Below, piece by piece: positions 36,783 to 48,744 of a stretch of 64,000 nt of DNA (the first letter of the stretch is position 1; every line of letters starts with the position of its first letter). The notes under the pieces were generated by a model. That model saw only the letters and a list, made by a program, of their open reading frames with translations. It searched no databases and was not told the origin of the DNA. The position numbers and the translations under genes are program-made. Source of the DNA: Novosphingobium pentaromativorans US6-1 (GTDB lineage: Bacteria > Pseudomonadota > Alphaproteobacteria > Sphingomonadales > Sphingomonadaceae); contig NZ_CP009291.1 in NCBI RefSeq assembly GCF_000767465.1, forward strand, positions 3,762,501 through 3,826,500, given 5' to 3'.

Positions 36783-38357
36783 TTATGCTGCTGATCGGCT
36801 TGGCCGGTTGGATGAGGCTAGGCGCGTCGTCGTCGGGTTTGCATCGACCAGAACGGTCGTCGCGAAGGTGTCGGAGCCTACTTCGACCGCATAGAGGGCG
36901 CCGGTTACCCTGGCGGTGGCTGCGCCCGCCGCGAAGTCCTGTCCCGTCTCTGCAGCGACGAGCGATCCCGCGATGGAAACGCCCCCTGTCGCCGCAAGAT
37001 TGTCGTTCGCAGCCTCTTGCGCGGCGAGGGCGCCGTTGATCGCCACAGAACCGGAAGCAGCGGCACTGTCTGCCCCCGATTCCTGAGCCGTGAGAGTGCC
37101 GGTGATGCTCGCGCCGTCAGTTACCGTGCCGCTCGCACCGAGATCATCGGTTCCGGTCTCCTGCGCGGCCAATGCACCCGATATTGCAACTGACCCGCTT
37201 ACCGATGGGCTATCCTGCCCTGTCTCTTGCGCCGTGAGCGCCCCGGTGACAGCAACAGCGAGTGTTCCCGTTGCCGCGTCTGCACCTGCCTCGATACCGG
37301 CGAGCGATCCGACGATTGCCACACCGCCCGATGCGCTGGCCGTGTCGCTGCCCGTTTCCTGCGTAGATGCCGCTCCCGACACTTCGACCGTACCCGAAGC
37401 GCTGGCGGTGTCGGTTCCGCTTTCCTGCGCGATCAGGGTGCCGGTGACGCCCGATACGACGTCATAGACCAGGACGATGTAGCCTGCGCCCCCAGAGCCA
37501 GCCGTGACGCTTCCGGTATCACGGGCACCACCGCCACCGGCACCATAGGAGCCGTTGGCACCGTTCTGCGAAGATGGAGTGCCGCCCGAGCCCCCACCGC
37601 CGCCGCCGCCAGGGCCGATGGAAACGCCGTCATTTGCGCCGCCGCTATTGTCGGTCCAGAGCGCCTCGTAGGAACCAGCGCCGCCGTTGCCCGAAGGTGT
37701 CGCGGCATCGCCACCTGCACCGCCACCACCTGACGAGCCTGCACCAGATGGCGGACTACCGCCTCCTGTCGAAAAGCGGTTGTTGCCTCCGGCGCCGCCG
37801 GCTCCGGATTGGCCTTCGCTTGATCCGGTTGGGGTGGACCCGTTGCCGCCCGCGCTGCCCCCGTTCGCACCGCCGCCACCGCCAGCGCCGCTGCCATTGT
37901 AGCTTGCGTGCTGAGAAGATCGCCCGCCATCGGCACCGGCCCCATTCGGCCCTGCGGCACCGCCACCGCCTCCACCGCCGTAGCAGTTCGAGTTCGTGAT
38001 GCGCCCGCCGGCACCGCCTGAGAACTTCGTGCTACCGAACGACGATGCTGCCGAGCCACCTGGCGCAGCCGACCCCAAGGAAGCATTCGCGCCCGCCTTC
38101 GCCATGACGGTCGAGGCCGACGAGAACCAGGTGTCCGTTCCGGAGCCACCGGCGCCGATCTGGATCGAGACTGGTACACCAGCGGTAACTGAGACGGTTC
38201 CGGACGCGAAGGCGCCGCCACCGCCACCATTGCGCGACCCGCCGCCACCCTTGACGCCATTACCGCCCGGCGCGCCGCAATGTGCGACGACGCTTGTGAC
38301 ACCGGCAGGCGGTGTCCATGAGCTGCCGGAAAGCAGGATCTCGGTGATTGTGGCCAT
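36783..38357 (-). CDS. Gly-rich repeat protein, putative fibre or adhesin
   Basis: The 524-residue protein has three parts: an N-terminal jelly-roll-like start (TEILLSGSSWTPPAGVTSVV), a Gly-rich region (about 30-290) with runs such as GGGGGGGAAGPNG, typical of the phage Gly-rich domain that may form polyglycine-II packing, and a C-terminal region (about 300-510) of roughly nine 20-26-residue repeats around ALTAQETGxDxxxASGSVAISG. It lies among head and connector genes rather than tail genes. A capsid- or neck-attached fibre is plausible. Function inferred from composition. Confidence 0.7.
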   Translation of the reverse strand: MATITEILLSGSSWTPPAGVTSVVAHCGAPGGNGVKGGGGSRNGGGGGAFASGTVSVTAGVPVSIQIGAGGSGTDTWFSSASTVMAKAGANASLGSAAPGGSAASSFGSTKFSGGAGGRITNSNCYGGGGGGGAAGPNGAGADGGRSSQHASYNGSGAGGGGGANGGSAGGNGSTPTGSSEGQSGAGGAGGNNRFSTGGGSPPSGAGSSGGGGAGGDAATPSGNGGAGSYEALWTDNSGGANDGVSIGPGGGGGGGSGGTPSSQNGANGSYGAGGGGARDTGSVTAGSGGAGYIVLVYDVVSGVTGTLIAQESGTDTASASGTVEVSGAASTQETGSDTASASGGVAIVGSLAGIEAGADAATGTLAVAVTGALTAQETGQDSPSVSGSVAISGALAAQETGTDDLGASGTVTDGASITGTLTAQESGADSAAASGSVAINGALAAQEAANDNLAATGGVSIAGSLVAAETGQDFAAGAATARVTGALYAVEVGSDTFATTVLVDANPTTTRLASSNRPSRSAA

Positions 38358-40704: not shown

Positions 40705-41202
40705 TTAGCGGTTGCGCGCGGACTTAGCCGCGGCGTGAATCGAGGCGGAATCGTTCGCCACGAACTGCGGGTTGCGGATGCTGTCGAGCACCTTGGGCTT
40801 GTTCGGCGACGCGTCCTTGAGCGCATCGAAACGCGCCTCAACGTAATCGTCCGACTTGTCCTTGGTATCGATGCCCTTGGCGTCGAGAGCCATGCGGCGA
40901 ACGTCAGCGACGGTCTTACCGGCGGTATCGCCAAGCTTGTCGCCCGCGATCTTCTTGGCATCGGCGACGACCGCAGCCTTCGCATCGGCGAGGGCGTCAA
41001 TCTGCGCCTGGTCGACGACCTTGGACTTGAGATCGTCGATCTCGGCATCCTTGGCGGCCATAGCCTTGTCATGGGCGGACTGAGCGTCGGCGAGGGCCTT
41101 GTCGCTCGTGGCGATCTTGGTCTGCAGCTTGTCGATCGCGACGGCGACGGCATCCGCATCCGCCAGATCGACCTGCAGACCGTCGAGCACGATCTTCTTC
41201 AT
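40705..41202 (-). CDS. Possible in-frame nested scaffold protein
   Basis: Within the protease-scaffold gene, ATG 41202 follows AAAGGA with a seven-base gap and begins MKKIVLDGLQVDLADADAV, exactly where the scaffold domain starts. The 165-residue product would be equivalent to lambda Nu3 or other nested scaffolds. It is a second start in the same frame, not a separate gene. Confidence 0.5.
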   Translation of the reverse strand: MKKIVLDGLQVDLADADAVAVAIDKLQTKIATSDKALADAQSAHDKAMAAKDAEIDDLKSKVVDQAQIDALADAKAAVVADAKKIAGDKLGDTAGKTVADVRRMALDAKGIDTKDKSDDYVEARFDALKDASPNKPKVLDSIRNPQFVANDSASIHAAAKSARNR

Positions 41203-41814
41203 GTTGCTGTCCTTTGTCAGGGATGCCTGGAGCTTCGCCAGCTCATCGGCGGTGATGGCGTCGCAGATCGCATGATCCTTGATCGCGCATTCGGGACCGG
41301 CTCGGCCTGCGTCGACGAGCGCGACGTGGTTGCCGGTGATCTTGGTCTGACGAGCGACACAGACTGTGCCGTCCTTCGCCGTGAAGTTGCCGATCTCGAT
41401 ATCGGCGCTGTAGCCGTTCGAGAGTTCGCGCTTGCCGCCATCGACCTTACGGATCGCACTGGCGTCGGTCAGCAGGAGGTCGAAAGCGAGATAGTCGCCA
41501 TCGCGCATCGCTCCCATGACGGTGCCGCGTGCATGATCGCGCCAATTCTCGGATGTGACTGCCTCGCGAGGGTGATTGTCGGTAATGGGCTTACCGATGA
41601 ACGAGCGGGCCGCTGTCTCGTCGAACACGGTCGCATCGTCGCGCAGAACGTTGACGAGACCCTTGTCGCGCAGGCCGTGCTGGTTCTGCGGGTCGATCTC
41701 GCTGCCGAGGTACTGGTAGACGCCAGTGCGAGCGGCCCGCGCGCGAACAGCGAGAAAGCCGTCCTTGGTGCGGCGCGGGGCGTCTAGCGTCAGGGTGTCG
41801 CGGAACTGTGCCAT
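40705..41814 (-). CDS. Prohead protease (DUF2213) fused to scaffold
   Basis: The 369-residue protein has an N-terminal DUF2213 protease domain (residues 1 to about 200; DNHPREAVTSENWRDHARG, LSNGYSADIE, ITGNHVALVDAGRAG) with candidate catalytic His residues, followed by an acidic, Ala/Lys/Asp-rich coiled-coil scaffold (about 205-330). Such proteins process the prohead and release themselves. An internal ATG at 41202 with its own Shine-Dalgarno could yield the scaffold alone. Confidence 0.85.
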   Translation of the reverse strand: MAQFRDTLTLDAPRRTKDGFLAVRARAARTGVYQYLGSEIDPQNQHGLRDKGLVNVLRDDATVFDETAARSFIGKPITDNHPREAVTSENWRDHARGTVMGAMRDGDYLAFDLLLTDASAIRKVDGGKRELSNGYSADIEIGNFTAKDGTVCVARQTKITGNHVALVDAGRAGPECAIKDHAICDAITADELAKLQASLTKDSNMKKIVLDGLQVDLADADAVAVAIDKLQTKIATSDKALADAQSAHDKAMAAKDAEIDDLKSKVVDQAQIDALADAKAAVVADAKKIAGDKLGDTAGKTVADVRRMALDAKGIDTKDKSDDYVEARFDALKDASPNKPKVLDSIRNPQFVANDSASIHAAAKSARNR

Positions 41815-41857: not shown

Positions 41858-42052
41858 TTAGGCGCGAATGACAGGCGCCGTGCTTTCACCCTTCACAATC
41901 ATCACCTTGTCACCATCGGGCCCGACAACGGACCATCCTTTCGTCTCGGCCAGCGCTGCTTGCTCGGCAGAGACGATGACGCGGCCGGAGGTGATGAACC
42001 CGCGCCCGTCCAGATCTATCGAGCCATTCTCGAGGACGTCACCGGCGGCCAT
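41858..42052 (-). CDS. Hypothetical phage protein (64 aa)
   Basis: ATG 42052 overlaps the head-morphogenesis stop (TGATG) and gives a small beta-rich protein (NGSIDLDGRGFITSGRVIVS). A longer frame upstream is an artefact of the overlap. Function unknown. Confidence 0.6.
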   Translation of the reverse strand: MAAGDVLENGSIDLDGRGFITSGRVIVSAEQAALAETKGWSVVGPDGDKVMIVKGESTAPVIRA

Positions 42053-42915
42053 CAGGCGCCAATCTCGGCCATGATGGGGAGATATGCCTGCTCGCGGCAA
42101 CCGCACCACGGCGGCATGCCTGCACGATCGTCGGCTTCAATCACATCTCCGCCTTTCATCGCGGTGCCGTCTGGGTTGACCTGCTTTCCGGTCGCGCTGT
42201 CGTAGATCTTGCCGTCGCGGGCCTTGTGCCAGGGGCGAGCGTGGACCTTTCCCGAATGCCGGTACTTGAACAGCGAGACGCCAGCCTCATCGCGGCGCTT
42301 ACGGTCTAGTGCGGCACTGAGTTTGCTGTTCTGGTCTGCAGCGATGCGCAGCGATCGATCCCGGCCCATAGCTACGGCTTCGCGGATGTTTTTCGCCACA
42401 TCTCGCGCCGGCAAGCGCTGTTCGTATCCACGATAGACCGCATCGGCGATCCTACCCTGCGCCTGGTCGGAGACGTTGCGCACGAGCGCGACGTTGCGAG
42501 CAATGAACGCTTCGACCGTTTCGGACACGTCACCCATGGTGAGCATCATGGACAAGTCGATGTCGATGGCGGCCTTGACGGCATCAGTCCATTTTCCGCG
42601 GTGCCAGCGTTCGGCGCGCACAACCCATTCGCGCAGGCCCGCTGTGAACTCGCCGATCAGGCGGGTTGCCTCGCGCTCGGCTTGCTCAATGTTCGCTGCC
42701 TGATCGGATGGCGCGTCCAGCACCATGGCATCGGCCACGCCCTTGGCGGGCTGTTCGTAGCCACGCATGAGGGAATCGACATCCCATGCCTTGAGGACGG
42801 GCAGGTAGATCGCTGCGAGGGCCTGCGCGTTCGCCTGTGTCGGTTCGATGGGGCGAAAAGTCAGGTTGCGCTTGATGCCGCGCTGGCGGGCCATGGCGGC
42901 TAGGTTGTAGGCCAT
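42052..42915 (-). CDS. Phage head morphogenesis (minor head) protein
   Basis: The 287-residue protein starts at ATG 42915 (TGATG with the previous gene). It shows the SPP1 gp7/Mu F-like layout: helical N-terminus, RNVSDQAQGRIADAVYRGYEQ, RSLRIAADQNSKLSAALDRKR, then a His/Cys end (VHARPWHKARDGKIY, PPWCGCREQAYLP). It follows the portal as expected and helps DNA entry and head assembly. Confidence 0.88.
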   Translation of the reverse strand: MAYNLAAMARQRGIKRNLTFRPIEPTQANAQALAAIYLPVLKAWDVDSLMRGYEQPAKGVADAMVLDAPSDQAANIEQAEREATRLIGEFTAGLREWVVRAERWHRGKWTDAVKAAIDIDLSMMLTMGDVSETVEAFIARNVALVRNVSDQAQGRIADAVYRGYEQRLPARDVAKNIREAVAMGRDRSLRIAADQNSKLSAALDRKRRDEAGVSLFKYRHSGKVHARPWHKARDGKIYDSATGKQVNPDGTAMKGGDVIEADDRAGMPPWCGCREQAYLPIMAEIGA

Positions 42916-43151
42916 CAGGACCAATGCCACCCGTCTGGAAGGGTATCGCGGTAAGCGCTCCGCCAAGCGGGTTTGCCTCCCACGAGCGGCATTCCATCCC
43001 CAGCCAGTAGCCACGGCCAGTCAAGCGGAGAATGCCCAGCCATTATGCGGATTGCGGCGCGCTGGCCTGATAGGGTGTTGATGGAATAAGCCCACGATCC
43101 GGCAGCTTTGCACCGGCGCCATGCGAACAGCGAGCGGACCCACCGGATCAC
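42915..43151 (-). CDS. Hypothetical phage protein (78 aa)
   Basis: GTG 43151 overlaps the portal stop (GTGA) and the stop overlaps the head-morphogenesis start (TGATG), so it is embedded in the operon. The protein is Trp-rich (IRWVRSLFAWRRCK, PLDWPWLLAGDG). No family recognised. Confidence 0.6.
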   Translation of the reverse strand: MIRWVRSLFAWRRCKAAGSWAYSINTLSGQRAAIRIMAGHSPLDWPWLLAGDGMPLVGGKPAWRSAYRDTLPDGWHWS

Positions 43152-45076
43152 GCCTCGGTGACCTTGCTTTTCCAATCGAGGTCGAGCGGCTCAAAAATCT
43201 CCGGTCCGAACTCCAGCGCGCCGCTGAACGGCTTGACCGCCTCAAGATCGAATTCAGCCGGGACCTCATACGACAGGGTGATGTGGGGCTGATACGTGTC
43301 AAAGTCGTGCGAACCGCCTGCCTCGACCATGGACCGATGGCGGCTCTCAATCTCCCACGACGAGAACAGCAGCACGACGGCGCTCTCGCCAAGCCGCTCG
43401 ATCGCGCGCGGGCCACCCGGCTTGATCCGGATCCGGCCTTCATCGTCACCGGTCCAGCTGTCGCCCATCTTCATGGGATCGACCGGCGTGCGCGAAAACA
43501 GCACGGTCACGTGCATGTCGTCGGCTGCAAGCGTCGACTTGAAGCCGTTGGCCTTTGCCCAGGCAATCAGTTCGCCAGCGTTGAGCAGCTTGCGCTGGAC
43601 ATAGAGTGGTCGGGGCTGAGCGTCAGCGAAGAACGCATCCTGAGCAGGGCTGGGCGAGCCGCTTCCAATCGACCCGCCGACACCCCGAGACGATTGACCA
43701 CCTCCTTTCGCTCTGGCCACGAGGGCGCTTGGATCAGGCAAATTCGGATCGGCCTCGGGAATCTCCGGCATCTTCGCCAGTTCATCGCCGAGCTCAGGCC
43801 AATTGCCACTGTCGACCATGCGGGCGGCCATGGACTTCGTGAGCGGACCTTCGGGGAATCCTGCGTTGACCAGTTTCGTGTAGGTGTCCGCTTCCTTGTT
43901 CTCGACTTCGGCGCGCTCCTTCTCAGTTGGCGTGTCGAGCGGGCAGAAGTCCCAATAGGTGTCCGAGGCGATACCGAGGCCTGGCAGGAGAAGACGGTCG
44001 AGCTTGTCGAGGGCAGGGCGCAGCGTCATGTCCTGCTTGGTCGCGATGCTGGCTCGGTAGTTCTTCTCGTCGCTCTCGCCTGTGCTGTTCATGCCGTCGG
44101 GTGACTTGCCGAGAAGGCGGGTGGCGGGAATGTCGGCGGCACCGGCAACGATCGCGAGATAGGTCTTGATCATGTCGGGCATGCCAGCCCAGTTGATCTG
44201 ACGCTGCTCCCAGTCGTCGCCCGCATCCATGATAACAGCGCGGTGCGTTGACTTCGCCATGTTCATGGCCTCGACCCGCGCTCGAGCCTTGTCGAGGCCT
44301 CCGGGCTGTAAGAGCAAATTCGCTAGTTCGGCGAGCTTGTAGTAATCGATCTTGGCTTCATCGATCAGAGTGGCAAAGCCATCCGTCGCCGTGTCCGCGT
44401 TCTTCACCGCGCGATCAATGCGCTCGATCACGCTGTCGCCCCAGAATTGCTCCTCGCTGGTCAGGCCGGTGAGTCCGGGGACACGCTCGCCCTTGAACAC
44501 GATGACGCGAGAGGGGTGGATTCGGTCAGATCCCCGCGCGCCGTTGATCGTGAACCACGCCGGTTCGCCGAAATTCTCACTGGTCACGTCCCAGTCGGTT
44601 TCGCCCAAGCCGATCACGCGGCGGGGTAGTGCCTTGACGTACAGCAGCTTGTCGCTGTCACGGGCGGGCGCGGCCATGTCGGTGCCGGATCCGAGGATGA
44701 CGACTCCGCCGCCGAGCCTGCCGTAGATGAGGCCGGTCAGGATCGCCTGACGAACACCGAGGCGCTTCTCGGCCTCCTCGACCTTCTTGATCTCTTCGGC
44801 GTCGAGTTCCCATTCACGCCACTCGCGCACCATGTCCATTGCGGGCAAGTCGACGATCTTGCTCATCAGCCAGGACGAGCGATAGGCCGCCTCGATCTGC
44901 TCGGGCGGCATCGGAATGTGGTGCCAGAAGTTGTGCGACGTGCGGTCGACACTGGTCCCGCGCCCGGTGAGCAGATTGACGATGCTGTCGTGCGTCATGG
45001 ACTGCGGGACAACCGCGCGCCCGTCGAAGACGAAGCCGGGTTTCGGTCGGACGTTGCGGATGCGGACTTCGGCCAT
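43148..45076 (-). CDS. Portal protein (DUF1073) fused to an Acb1-like anti-CBASS domain
   Basis: The 642-residue protein has a DUF1073 portal region (residues about 20-440; SSWLMSKIVDLPAMDMVREW, ILTGLIYGRLGGGVVILG, ATRLLGKSPDGMNSTGE), a Gly/Ser-rich linker (about 455-480), and a C-terminal domain from about residue 489. That domain has two H-x-T motifs, HVT at 522-524 and HIT at 598-600, spaced like the 2H phosphoesterase Acb1 of phage T4, which cleaves cyclic oligonucleotide signals of CBASS immunity. The portal forms the DNA-entry ring of the head. Current family naming links DUF1073 to Acb1-like domains, so such fusions are known; activity of this one is inferred. Confidence 0.88.
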   Translation of the reverse strand: MAEVRIRNVRPKPGFVFDGRAVVPQSMTHDSIVNLLTGRGTSVDRTSHNFWHHIPMPPEQIEAAYRSSWLMSKIVDLPAMDMVREWREWELDAEEIKKVEEAEKRLGVRQAILTGLIYGRLGGGVVILGSGTDMAAPARDSDKLLYVKALPRRVIGLGETDWDVTSENFGEPAWFTINGARGSDRIHPSRVIVFKGERVPGLTGLTSEEQFWGDSVIERIDRAVKNADTATDGFATLIDEAKIDYYKLAELANLLLQPGGLDKARARVEAMNMAKSTHRAVIMDAGDDWEQRQINWAGMPDMIKTYLAIVAGAADIPATRLLGKSPDGMNSTGESDEKNYRASIATKQDMTLRPALDKLDRLLLPGLGIASDTYWDFCPLDTPTEKERAEVENKEADTYTKLVNAGFPEGPLTKSMAARMVDSGNWPELGDELAKMPEIPEADPNLPDPSALVARAKGGGQSSRGVGGSIGSGSPSPAQDAFFADAQPRPLYVQRKLLNAGELIAWAKANGFKSTLAADDMHVTVLFSRTPVDPMKMGDSWTGDDEGRIRIKPGGPRAIERLGESAVVLLFSSWEIESRHRSMVEAGGSHDFDTYQPHITLSYEVPAEFDLEAVKPFSGALEFGPEIFEPLDLDWKSKVTEA

Positions 45077-45119: not shown

Positions 45120-46547
45120 CTACATGCTGTCCCAGATACTCGCCTTGTTCAGCGAGACGATCTCGAAGGCCCGCGATGTAGCGTCTACCTCGTCGTCATG
45201 CTTCGCGACCGGGAAGCCCTCAAGGGCATTGAACCATCCGTCGTTCCATACCCCACGCAGAACATCCACGTTGCCCGCCTCTGCCTGAGCAGAAAACGGC
45301 CCGAAGCGCGTCGCCTTATCGCCTGTCTCGGTTGAATAGCGAACGGTGTACCCGCTCAGCATCTTCACGAGCTGGGCGACCTGGCTCTTACCTGCCTGAC
45401 CCGGATCTTGCGGCAGTGAGATTTCGACGGAATGCCCGTCCTCGGACGCTGTGTTGAGGATAAAGCGCTCCATGCCAGCGGGACTGGTCCTCGTCGTGCG
45501 GCAATCTGTCACGATGTACCGGCCATCTGGCGTGCGGCCAATCCGAACCGATGCGAGGAAGTCAGGGTCTGGGTTGTCGGGAGTCGGTATCGTTGCCGCC
45601 AGGTCGTAGCCACGCCCCCATACTGTTCCGGCCGGCACCGCATCGACGACACGGCACCATGATCGCTGGAAGTACAAGCCAGCTGCGGGTCGGATCTTCC
45701 AGTTGCCGCCTAGCAGGCGCTCGCGCTCGACCAGCGGCAGGGCGAGCAGCGACGCCATGTAGCCCGGGTCGGCTGCCATTAGCGCCTTGTTGTCCGTCAG
45801 CTTGGCAGGGATGAAGGTCAGCGACTTCGGCGGGATCGGAACTTGCTCGCCCGCGTCGTTGATCATGGTGTAGCATGCGAGCTCGTCGGGGCTGTCTGCC
45901 CACTTGAGGTCTTCGCCAACGCGAACGAACCAGCGCAGCACGCCGGACCGTTCCGGAATCGGCAGACCAGTGTCCTGATCGATCCACCATGCGATGAGTT
46001 CGGCGACCCAACTGTCTGCGTCAGGGTTGCAGGTCGCGCGGATGTAGGGCCGCACGCCGCACATCGAGCGGTTGCGGCTGACCATGTACCAGAACTGGAC
46101 CGCGCTGAAGTGCGTGAGCTCGTCGAAGCAGATCAGTGGGATCTGCGAGCCCTGCCAGTTGAAGCGGGTCTTATCGTGCTCCAGGTGGGCGAAGCTGACC
46201 GACGCGCCGGTCGGGAAGTCCCACGAGAGCACATGCTCTTTCGGGCTGCCTCCGATCTGCGGATACAGGACGGCGCTCTCGTCCCATAGGCCGCCCTCGT
46301 TGCGGATCTGGACCGTCGACCGGCGGAAGAAGACCGCACCGAAACCGGGATTGCCGATGTGCCGCAGGGGCTCCATGAGCAGGCCCCAGGTCTTCCCACC
46401 GCCAGCGCCGCCACCGTAGATGACGATATCGGCGGGAGAGGAAAGGAACTCGGTCTGGGGACCCGGCTGCGGCTTGATCGTGGTTTCGGTGATCGGCGGG
46501 CCGCCGTTGTGGCCTATGCCGGGAGTGATCGAGGTGTGGGCATTCAC
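45120..46547 (-). CDS. Terminase large subunit
   Basis: The 475-residue packaging motor starts at GTG 46547 (GTGA overlap). Walker A GGGAGGGKT lies near residue 47, Walker B ICFDE near 138, and the nuclease domain has acidic sites in RGYDLAAT and KHDDEVDAT. It cuts concatemers and drives DNA into the head through the portal encoded next. Confidence 0.95.
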   Translation of the reverse strand: MNAHTSITPGIGHNGGPPITETTIKPQPGPQTEFLSSPADIVIYGGGAGGGKTWGLLMEPLRHIGNPGFGAVFFRRSTVQIRNEGGLWDESAVLYPQIGGSPKEHVLSWDFPTGASVSFAHLEHDKTRFNWQGSQIPLICFDELTHFSAVQFWYMVSRNRSMCGVRPYIRATCNPDADSWVAELIAWWIDQDTGLPIPERSGVLRWFVRVGEDLKWADSPDELACYTMINDAGEQVPIPPKSLTFIPAKLTDNKALMAADPGYMASLLALPLVERERLLGGNWKIRPAAGLYFQRSWCRVVDAVPAGTVWGRGYDLAATIPTPDNPDPDFLASVRIGRTPDGRYIVTDCRTTRTSPAGMERFILNTASEDGHSVEISLPQDPGQAGKSQVAQLVKMLSGYTVRYSTETGDKATRFGPFSAQAEAGNVDVLRGVWNDGWFNALEGFPVAKHDDEVDATSRAFEIVSLNKASIWDSM

Positions 46548-46998: not shown

Positions 46999-47462
46999 GC
47001 ATCCCTCCCATTGTCCGGTAGCGCGAAGATCGCCACAGCAGGTGCAGCGGCAGGCAGATCCTTCCCGTCCTTGCCGGTGTGTTCACGCCGGTTTGTAAAT
47101 GAGTTGCCTTCCTCCATTGCTGCTTGCTTTGCGGCATCTAGTACGAGGGCAAGGTTCCCCATCTCCTCCGCCTTCTCACCAACGCGTTGGATGACGCGTA
47201 GCCGGGTGGATCGATGCGCCCAACCAATGTGAGCTGTGTTTGTGATGAAGCCGTCGCGGGTCGCTTCGAATATCGCCTTGAGCTTTTTCGATAGGCTTTG
47301 CCCTGCGCGCTTTGTTGGGTCGTATTTCTCGACCTGTTGGCGCGAAATCTTCAAGCCAAATTCCTGGTTGACGGCCTTCACTACTGTGCCTGGGCTGTCG
47401 AAACAGGCAACAGACTGAACGATAAAGATTTTCACGTTGTCAGGGAGTCTCGTTCCATTCAT
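46995..47462 (-). CDS. Terminase small subunit (DUF2280-like)
   Basis: The 155-residue protein (LPDNVKIFIVQSVACFDSPGTV, ISRQQVEKYDPTKRAGQ) has the helix-turn-helix of the DUF2280 family, which occupies the small-terminase position in many proteobacterial phages. It would recognise the packaging site. The product ends with a Pro/Ala-rich tail. Confidence 0.8.
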   Translation of the reverse strand: MNGTRLPDNVKIFIVQSVACFDSPGTVVKAVNQEFGLKISRQQVEKYDPTKRAGQSLSKKLKAIFEATRDGFITNTAHIGWAHRSTRLRVIQRVGEKAEEMGNLALVLDAAKQAAMEEGNSFTNRREHTGKDGKDLPAAAPAVAIFALPDNGRDA

Positions 47463-48124
47463 TTTTCAGTCAACCCAGCATCAACTTGCGCCATGATTTT
47501 ACGAAACTGTTCGCCCGCCTTTCGCTCGGCGATACGATTGGACTTCATACTAGCCTCTACTTCTTTGTCCTTGGCGCACAGGAGAGATCGCGCGCTGCGT
47601 GCCAAGCTCTGGAACAGATCAGCCCGTTCTTCTTTCGTCATGTCATCCAACATATCCAAAGGAACTGATGGATCTGCATTCTCGAATACGGCGAGTGACC
47701 ACTGCACCGAAGCATGGAACCGCTCGACATCGCCGAGCTGGCCCGGTCCGATATTAGTCAGGCGATGCTTGGCTGCCTGGATGATTCGCCGCTCGATCGA
47801 ATACGCGTGGCCCTCACTCAGGCCATCCATCACGACAGCTACGATGAGCGGAGAGCCCGACGCAGCTATGGATCGCAGTCGTTCTGCCTTCGCAAGGTTC
47901 GGCTCTTTCCCTTTCAGGGCAAGCGGCATGTGACTGAGGGCACGTTTGCCTTTCCCCTTGCCGATATAGAACGGGAAACCGGTGCGAGGATCGGCAAGCA
48001 CATAGACATAGAAGCCTCTTTCCGCTCCGAAACCGCGATATGGCAGACCAGCGAAATCGAACGCAGCCGCCAAGGTTTGACCATCCGCTAACGCGGCGGC
48101 GAAGCGATCTACAGCCTCCGTCAT
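47459..48124 (-). CDS. GIY-YIG family endonuclease
   Basis: The 221-residue protein starts at ATG 48124 (ATGA). It has the GIY-YIG core: YVYVLADP (residues 39-46), FYIGKGKGKR (52-61) with the catalytic-type Tyr and Arg, and a Glu in AYSIERRII. Its place just upstream of the terminase genes matches homing-type or packaging-related nucleases next to cos sites of many phages. A homing role or participation in packaging are both possible. Confidence 0.82.
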   Translation of the reverse strand: MTEAVDRFAAALADGQTLAAAFDFAGLPYRGFGAERGFYVYVLADPRTGFPFYIGKGKGKRALSHMPLALKGKEPNLAKAERLRSIAASGSPLIVAVVMDGLSEGHAYSIERRIIQAAKHRLTNIGPGQLGDVERFHASVQWSLAVFENADPSVPLDMLDDMTKEERADLFQSLARSARSLLCAKDKEVEASMKSNRIAERKAGEQFRKIMAQVDAGLTEK

Positions 48125-48744
48125 GCCGCGGCGCGCAGGCATGTGCCGCACGCTCCTGCGATTGATGCCCGGCCAATGGTGGGCCCGCGCTGCGCGGCGT
48201 CGACCATCGCCGTGACCTCTGCAGCCCCTGCGCCGTACCGCTCTACGACGCCTACGAACTGCTCGACGTCGTGGCCCCGGATCTGGAATTGCGGCCGTCC
48301 GTCGCGACCGAATGCGGGCATGCCGTATTTGTCGAGCTTTTGGGCGCAGTGATAAAGCTCATGCTCAATAAGGGCGCAGAAGGTCGGATCATCCATTCCG
48401 GACGCAGCCGGCGCGCTGAACGTCAGCAGGAAATCGGGCATCCCGTCGAACCATTCTTCGATCTGCTGAATTGCCCGGGCCTTCTGCCATTTGCCCATCG
48501 CCATGGGGGGCATGATCTCCGCCTGGCCGATTACTGAGCGCATGTTCCGGCTGTTGTTGCAGTTGGTCCAAAGGACGCCAAGGTGGGCTTCCTGTAGATG
48601 GGCGTGCTCGTGATTGTAGAGCGGGCTTGCCTCGTCGAGGAACGTGGTGCGGATCCAGCTGAGCAGGTCAGGCGCAGGCACGAACCGGTCAAGCATCTCG
48701 ATGTCCGAGAAGGTGGCGAGCTCTTCGGGTGGGTGTGGCCTCAC
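48121..48744 (-). CDS. Putative phage metallopeptidase
   Basis: GTG 48744 (GTGA overlap) gives a 207-residue protein with the zinc-protease motif HELYH in CALIEHELYHCAQKL, followed by PAFGRDGRPQFQIRGHDVEQF, which matches the putative phage metallopeptidase family. Upstream frame extension would overlap the DUF2442 gene and is unlikely. It may process a phage or host protein; the substrate is unknown. Confidence 0.8.
   Translation of the reverse strand: MRPHPPEELATFSDIEMLDRFVPAPDLLSWIRTTFLDEASPLYNHEHAHLQEAHLGVLWTNCNNSRNMRSVIGQAEIMPPMAMGKWQKARAIQQIEEWFDGMPDFLLTFSAPAASGMDDPTFCALIEHELYHCAQKLDKYGMPAFGRDGRPQFQIRGHDVEQFVGVVERYGAGAAEVTAMVDAAQRGPTIGRASIAGACGTCLRAAA

Follow-up and report, generated by a model that had tools for sequence, protein, structure and literature searches.

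What does an Acb1-like domain do at the end of a phage portal protein? The question is raised by a gene of 642 codons (43148..45076, minus strand, ATG start) in a 64,000-nucleotide stretch of the Novosphingobium pentaromativorans US6-1 genome (NZ_CP009291.1, positions 3,762,501 to 3,826,500), hereafter the window. A first-pass annotation of the window had described the product as a DUF1073 portal followed by a C-terminal domain with two H-x-T motifs, and had read this domain as an Acb1-like enzyme directed against the cyclic oligonucleotide-based antiphage signalling system (CBASS). We consider it probable that the C-terminal domain works as a phosphodiesterase of the Acb1 family, tethered by a linker inside the procapsid and cleaving CBASS nucleotides.

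The C-terminal domain and its catalytic residues

The architecture of the protein was confirmed. Its core, residues 60-401 (43874..44899, minus strand, as for all parts of the gene), matches PF06381 (Phage_portal_3, DUF1073/TIGR01555) with 301.9 bits in Pfam; PF06381 and TIGR01555 are both over their cut-offs and terL is adjoining. A Pro/Gly/Ser-rich linker follows at residues ~437-488 (43613..43768, limits set by eye) and then the domain itself, residues 489-642 (43151..43612), in which PF23474 (Acb1) covers residues 490-637 with 132 bits against a cut-off of 27. A profile search of the whole source genome gave this gene as the sole PF23474 match (136.1 bits). The predicted fold is that of a 2H phosphoesterase, as the first-pass annotation expected, and structure comparison placed Acb1 as the nearest fold and family, ahead of LigT and Usb1. 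The motifs HVT 522-524 (43505..43513) and HIT 598-600 (43277..43285) align with H44/T46 and H113/T115 of T4 Acb1 (numbering from PMC9117128), so that the tetrad H522, T524, H598 and T600 is complete. Chance occurrence of the two HxT motifs is ruled out by the profile match and the fold. Judged by family, predicted fold and tetrad, the assignment of the domain to the Acb1 family of 2H enzymes is right.

The Acb1 proteins of T4 and FBB1, as far as the accessible text on them goes (PMC9117128; 7t26/7t27), have the 2H fold and the HxT/HxT tetrad in common with the window domain. Equivalents of T4 Y12, F107, E141 and W147 are also present: the base-stacking aromatics Y492, F592 and W635 are aligned to Y12, F107 and W147, and E629 occupies the place of E141, which contacts adenine N6. 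However, T4 and FBB1 Acb1 are solo proteins whereas the window domain is fused to a portal, and its identity with FBB1 Acb1 is 26%. The same account describes tests of 9 further acb1 genes (Hobbs et al. 2022, PMC9117128). Pfam and some UniProt/NCBI names already read Acb1 for proteins such as ours, and no PADLOC family matched the window portal at E 1e-3. Acb1-type genes are often annotated as 'RNA ligase' or 'prohead protease', examples being PHROG 755, T4-like records, L004:2116-2715 and Roseobacter phage DSS3P8.

Conservation was followed across 624 classified sequences (298 proteins and 326 open reading frames (ORFs), contigs fetched twice included), from which 527 distinct domains were obtained, 20 incomplete ones being dropped and duplicates merged. 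The tetrad, with S accepted for T, is intact in 521 of them, the six exceptions being L090, L126, L144, L278, P0031 and P0038. Since several of the gathering scans used HVT-containing patterns, the H522 and T524 counts from the loci are biased; H598 and T600, which were in no search pattern, are kept in 269 and 268 of 270 loci respectively. In the protein sets gathered without the HVT pattern the tetrad is intact in 102/104, 39/39 and 114/114 distinct complete domains. Among 152 columns, variability is lowest at T524, H598, H522, R557, G511 and R579. Furthermore, the ratio of nonsynonymous to synonymous substitution rates (omega) is below 0.47 in all 1582 domain pairs, which are not independent (median 0.18); the pairs were chosen at an Acb1 identity of 0.70-0.985, which biases the comparison with the portal, and only omega <1 is used here. 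Purifying selection of this kind fits a working enzyme.

Partner proteins of the domain in other phages

A search found 630 proteins of about portal size, and all 120 of those listed carry PF06381 together with PF23474 in precomputed Pfam data. The domain is not confined to this portal family. On genome contigs it was found on Mu-type portals (PF06074; L077, L080, L081, L085), on HK97-type portals (PF04860; L078, L079, L083), on an S78 prohead protease (L086) and on DUF2213 proteases (L087, L088). Six local hidden Markov models labelled 445 of the 624 sequences as PF06381, 25 as XkdF, 23 as PF06074, 20 as PF04860, 17 as DUF2213 and 8 as S78, leaving 86 unlabelled. Pfam was run on 17 of these (15 plus L004 and P0169), and seven showed no partner family (L004, L089, L199, L210, L241, P0205, P0252); the rest of the unlabelled ones resemble, by length only, contig fragments or solo-length proteins, with exceptions such as P0184, P0192, L183 and L206, of which P0184 and P0192 are listed with PF06074. 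The placement of the domain is regular. Of 488 portal fusions, 487 carry it in their C-terminal half, and of 50 fusions to the three protease families, 49 carry it in their N-terminal half.

Larger assemblies were observed as well. Three long single chains on viral contigs join portal, Acb1 and MuF (L184, L201, L240), and a fragment at a contig edge joins Acb1 and MuF (L219). Other partners are ART-PolyVal (L203), an oxidoreductase (L189), an SLT transglycosylase (L259) and a helicase (L246); in L189, L246, L259 and L210 the domain lies within viral-contig proteins of 1800-2700 amino acids. The 1051-residue protein at L090:5323-8478 carries NUDIX and then Acb1 with an XkdF protease, its second catalytic His being read as Asn, and no relative emerged when the L090 domain by itself served as the query. 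The Acb1 domain sits on head proteins and is accompanied by other effector domains, or replaced by one in L342 on a match below its cut-off, as expected of a head-packaged effector. In Synechococcus phage Yong-M3-232 (L002:158-2144) portal and Acb1 are two overlapping ORFs in different frames, and in its relative Ssp-JY40 they form one ORF; the split may reflect fission or a sequencing error.

In a quick tree of 118 domains, picked by label, four coarse classes (three portal types and the pooled proteases) need at least 11 changes where the minimum possible is 3. The tree has SH-like approximate likelihood ratio (SH-aLRT) support values only and leaves 52 of 115 inner branches open, some labels such as 'solo' were assigned by hand, and if only the starred branches are counted, no more than 2 changes are required for any one of six architectures. 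Recurrent fusion of the domain to head proteins is likely from these data, though not fully proven.

The central idea of a portal-fused enzyme acting on immune nucleotides is already in print. As far as the available text goes, Iyer 2017 (PMC5512222) describes 2H domains fused to MuF or portal and proposes that they act as RNases or eliminate immune nucleotides, and Iyer 2022 (PMC9503650) describes 2H-portal and 2H-MuF fusions with proposed head packaging and injection, together with NUDIX fused to MuF, portal and a capsid-processing peptidase. The architecture of those 2H fusions is identical to that of the window protein and the proposal is much alike, but in the accessible parts of these texts neither a fusion of 2H to a prohead protease nor triggering of CBASS by assembly proteins is mentioned. 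Our additions include the domain on two further portal families and on three prohead-protease families; among the papers listed by searches of an open-access library, no report of an Acb1-protease fusion was found, which is a weak negative. The PBECR, ART and NUDIX effectors on MuF, portal or polyvalent proteins are likewise enzymatic cargo on head proteins, but their folds and presumed targets differ from those of the window domain.

Is the domain then an enzyme at all, or a catalytically idle structural part of the portal crown or of scaffold docking? Its location on an assembly protein would suit such a role, as would its occurrence across distant phages. Indeed, the portal of cyanophage Pam3 (8hds, 621 amino acids) aligns over residues 28-639, C-terminal domain included (HVT...HIS), with 31.3% identity overall and 37.0% within the domain. 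8hds is absent among the 50 Foldseek matches listed and among the VIA matches listed, which might mean that the domain is flexible or cut off and not modelled there, although there is no proof of this. Against an idle role stand the nearly invariant tetrad, the presence of the domain on unrelated proteins and its loss or replacement in related portals (L003, L337, L342). The PF06381 portal occurs in 8 of 296 genomes of the order, with an adjacent Acb1 match in 5 of the 8; of the others, the G551 portal (L337) ends within the linker, in G579 (L342) the place of Acb1 is taken by a PBECR3-like domain (E 8e-4, below the cut-off), and the portal of G616 is remote and shorter. In the isolated Rhizobium phage RHph_N28_2 the portal is 481 amino acids long, which leaves no room for the domain. 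Since domain-less or domain-replaced portals exist, related portals function without it, and we regard the idle structural role as highly improbable.

The linker sequence is variable among relatives. An AAND motif is found in 154 of 364 distinct linkers of PF06381 type and in 1 of 36 of the other two portal types, and a short RRAAND-like motif turns up repeatedly in linkers that vary elsewhere, including those of the L337 and L342 portals without Acb1. This motif is a possible protease site.

CBASS in the genome and the likely substrate

The genome that holds the window also holds a CBASS operon. Profile and defence-system searches located consecutive genes for a SMODS cyclase, HORMA, TRIP13, a Cap17-like/TIR effector and an exonuclease effector on contig C1 at ~30.0-34.2 kb (G000; L336:6022-10200). 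The combination of cyclase, HORMA and TRIP13 corresponds to the type III CBASS layout. Across genomes, SMODS is over the cut-off in 16 of 50 alphaproteobacterial loci with fused Acb1 compared with 15/385, the 50 being the first of 56 assigned to this class by record title among 76 (L060, which is the second locus from the L043 genome, was omitted). Among loci assigned by title to Sphingomonadales, taken to be the order of the window, the figures are 6/17 and 20/296. These figures suggest an association, yet it is confounded, and we do not rely on it.

Several observations weigh against the anti-CBASS reading. Inside the random sample of the order, SMODS accompanies fused Acb1 in only 1/6 compared with 19/290. 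Differences in genome size, lineage and prophage load confound the 16/50 contrast. Portals lacking the domain (L003, L337) count here too. A very long branch separates T4-type solo Acb1 from this clade, and the tree program warns of long-branch joins. No aromatic counterpart of T4 W74 is found in the alignment, which is uncertain at this point. The E629 position holds E in 265 of 383 PF06381-type domains, 2/16 of PF04860 type, 3/15 of DUF2213 type and 0/6 of S78 type, compared with 19/20 of PF06074 type and 12/25 of XkdF type, the other residues being mostly A or S. Given this variability, adenine recognition may differ. The long distance from T4-type Acb1, the variable Glu and the lack of a clear W74 counterpart weigh against a plain 'Acb1' label for a domain whose activity is a prediction. 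The first-pass reading is partly supported: family, fold and tetrad are right and purifying selection fits a working enzyme, but substrate and anti-CBASS activity are putative, given the distance of the clade from T4-type Acb1 and one variable base contact.

The variable E629 and the lack of a W74 counterpart leave room for a 2H enzyme that acts on RNA, either trimming or opening 2',3'-cyclic phosphate ends or serving as an RNase, perhaps with PBECR-type nucleases, and that is no anti-CBASS factor. LigT, CPDase and Usb1 have this fold, RNase is one of the two options in the available text of Iyer 2017, which cites parallel PBECR fusions, and a PBECR3 match follows Acb1 in some relatives (P0033, over the cut-off; P0070 and P0080, below it). 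However, the nearest fold and family are Acb1 and not LigT/Usb1, and the equivalents of Y12, F107 and W147 are aromatic in the window protein. We consider an RNA substrate unlikely, and cleavage of CBASS nucleotides remains our preferred reading.

In the surrounding locus, all on the minus strand, the terminase large subunit gene terL lies upstream (45120..46547) and a MuF/SPP1-gp7-like head morphogenesis gene downstream (42052..43014), whose product scores 28.6 bits with PF04233, just below the cut-off of 29.6, and matches PHROG 324 (E 1.9e-31). A DUF2213 head maturation protease follows (40705..41814). A 49-kb IMG/VR contig (L102) carries a domain 100% identical across all 154 residues, which makes the window locus consistent with a prophage. 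By eye, a Gly-rich protein of 524 amino acids with repeated units looks fibre-like (36783-38357), and a product close to the terminase genes has a GIY-YIG nuclease-type look (47459-48151).

Proposed place and timing of action

Portal C-termini usually point into the head. Since the portal C-terminus and the prohead protease both lie in the procapsid lumen, an enzyme tethered in the lumen during assembly is favoured. The flexible linker would hold the domain at that end of the portal which faces inward, fusion to a portal C-terminus or to a protease N-terminus would place the enzyme in the procapsid interior, and cyclic di- or trinucleotides from CBASS, or close relatives of them, would be the substrate. 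It could act in the producing cell during head assembly, the stage at which CBASS is reportedly triggered by a phage protease, and/or in the next cell, if the head protease frees it for ejection; the former is slightly more likely.

Since a portal is left outside the cell together with the spent head, entry of the domain would need its proteolytic release, and the first-pass expectation that about twelve copies would enter is doubtful. A free domain made from an internal start, also suggested there, found no positive support from start codons or ribosome-binding sites: start codons occur at 416, 420, 436, 446 and 453, none at 454-520, and no clear ribosome-binding site was seen by eye.

The fusion could also serve late expression only: Acb1 would be made along with a late protein that is abundant, it would act in the producing cell on portals that are free or built into procapsids, and nothing would reach the next cell. 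This is a matter of timing, compatible with the enzyme assignment that we favour, and the chances of the two are not to be added. The retention of portals on the spent head and the main partners, which are late head genes, argue for it, as does the trigger reported for CBASS. Indeed, a prohead protease was reportedly found by Richmond-Buccola in 2024 to be a determinant of CBASS activation, and phage proteases are said by Hobbs and Kranzusch in 2026 to activate CBASS. A review (PMC12409349), in its accessible part, mentions the 2024 work and a phage protease that triggers CBASS. Against late expression only, the company of ART-PolyVal, PBECR3, SLT, NUDIX and giant proteins resembles proteins that Iyer et al., in the available texts, deem injected, and we give it somewhat less than an even chance. 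In T4, according to the accessible text of Hobbs et al. 2022 (PMC9117128), acb1 neighbours ipI.

A more speculative extension, which we hold to be rather doubtful, is that trigger and antidote lie on one polypeptide: CBASS would sense head assembly through the prohead protease, and phages would for this reason have repeatedly fused the cleaving domain to proteins of procapsid construction and maturation, at the portal C-terminus and the protease N-terminus. The alarm signal would be destroyed where and when it is made, and other effector fusions on head proteins would obey the same logic. The fusion of an anti-CBASS-type domain to a protein class reported as a CBASS trigger is the part worth testing.

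The locus links a structural head protein to an enzyme predicted to degrade an immune signal, and it offers a concrete way to test at which place and stage phages disarm CBASS. Should Acb1 act locally while tethered to a portal or protease, the fusion of a counter-defence enzyme to assembly proteins would make sense, and the sensing of phages by CBASS would be connected with the evasion of CBASS. Should the domain instead be injected, it would serve as counter-defence in advance, comparable to internal protein I of T4.
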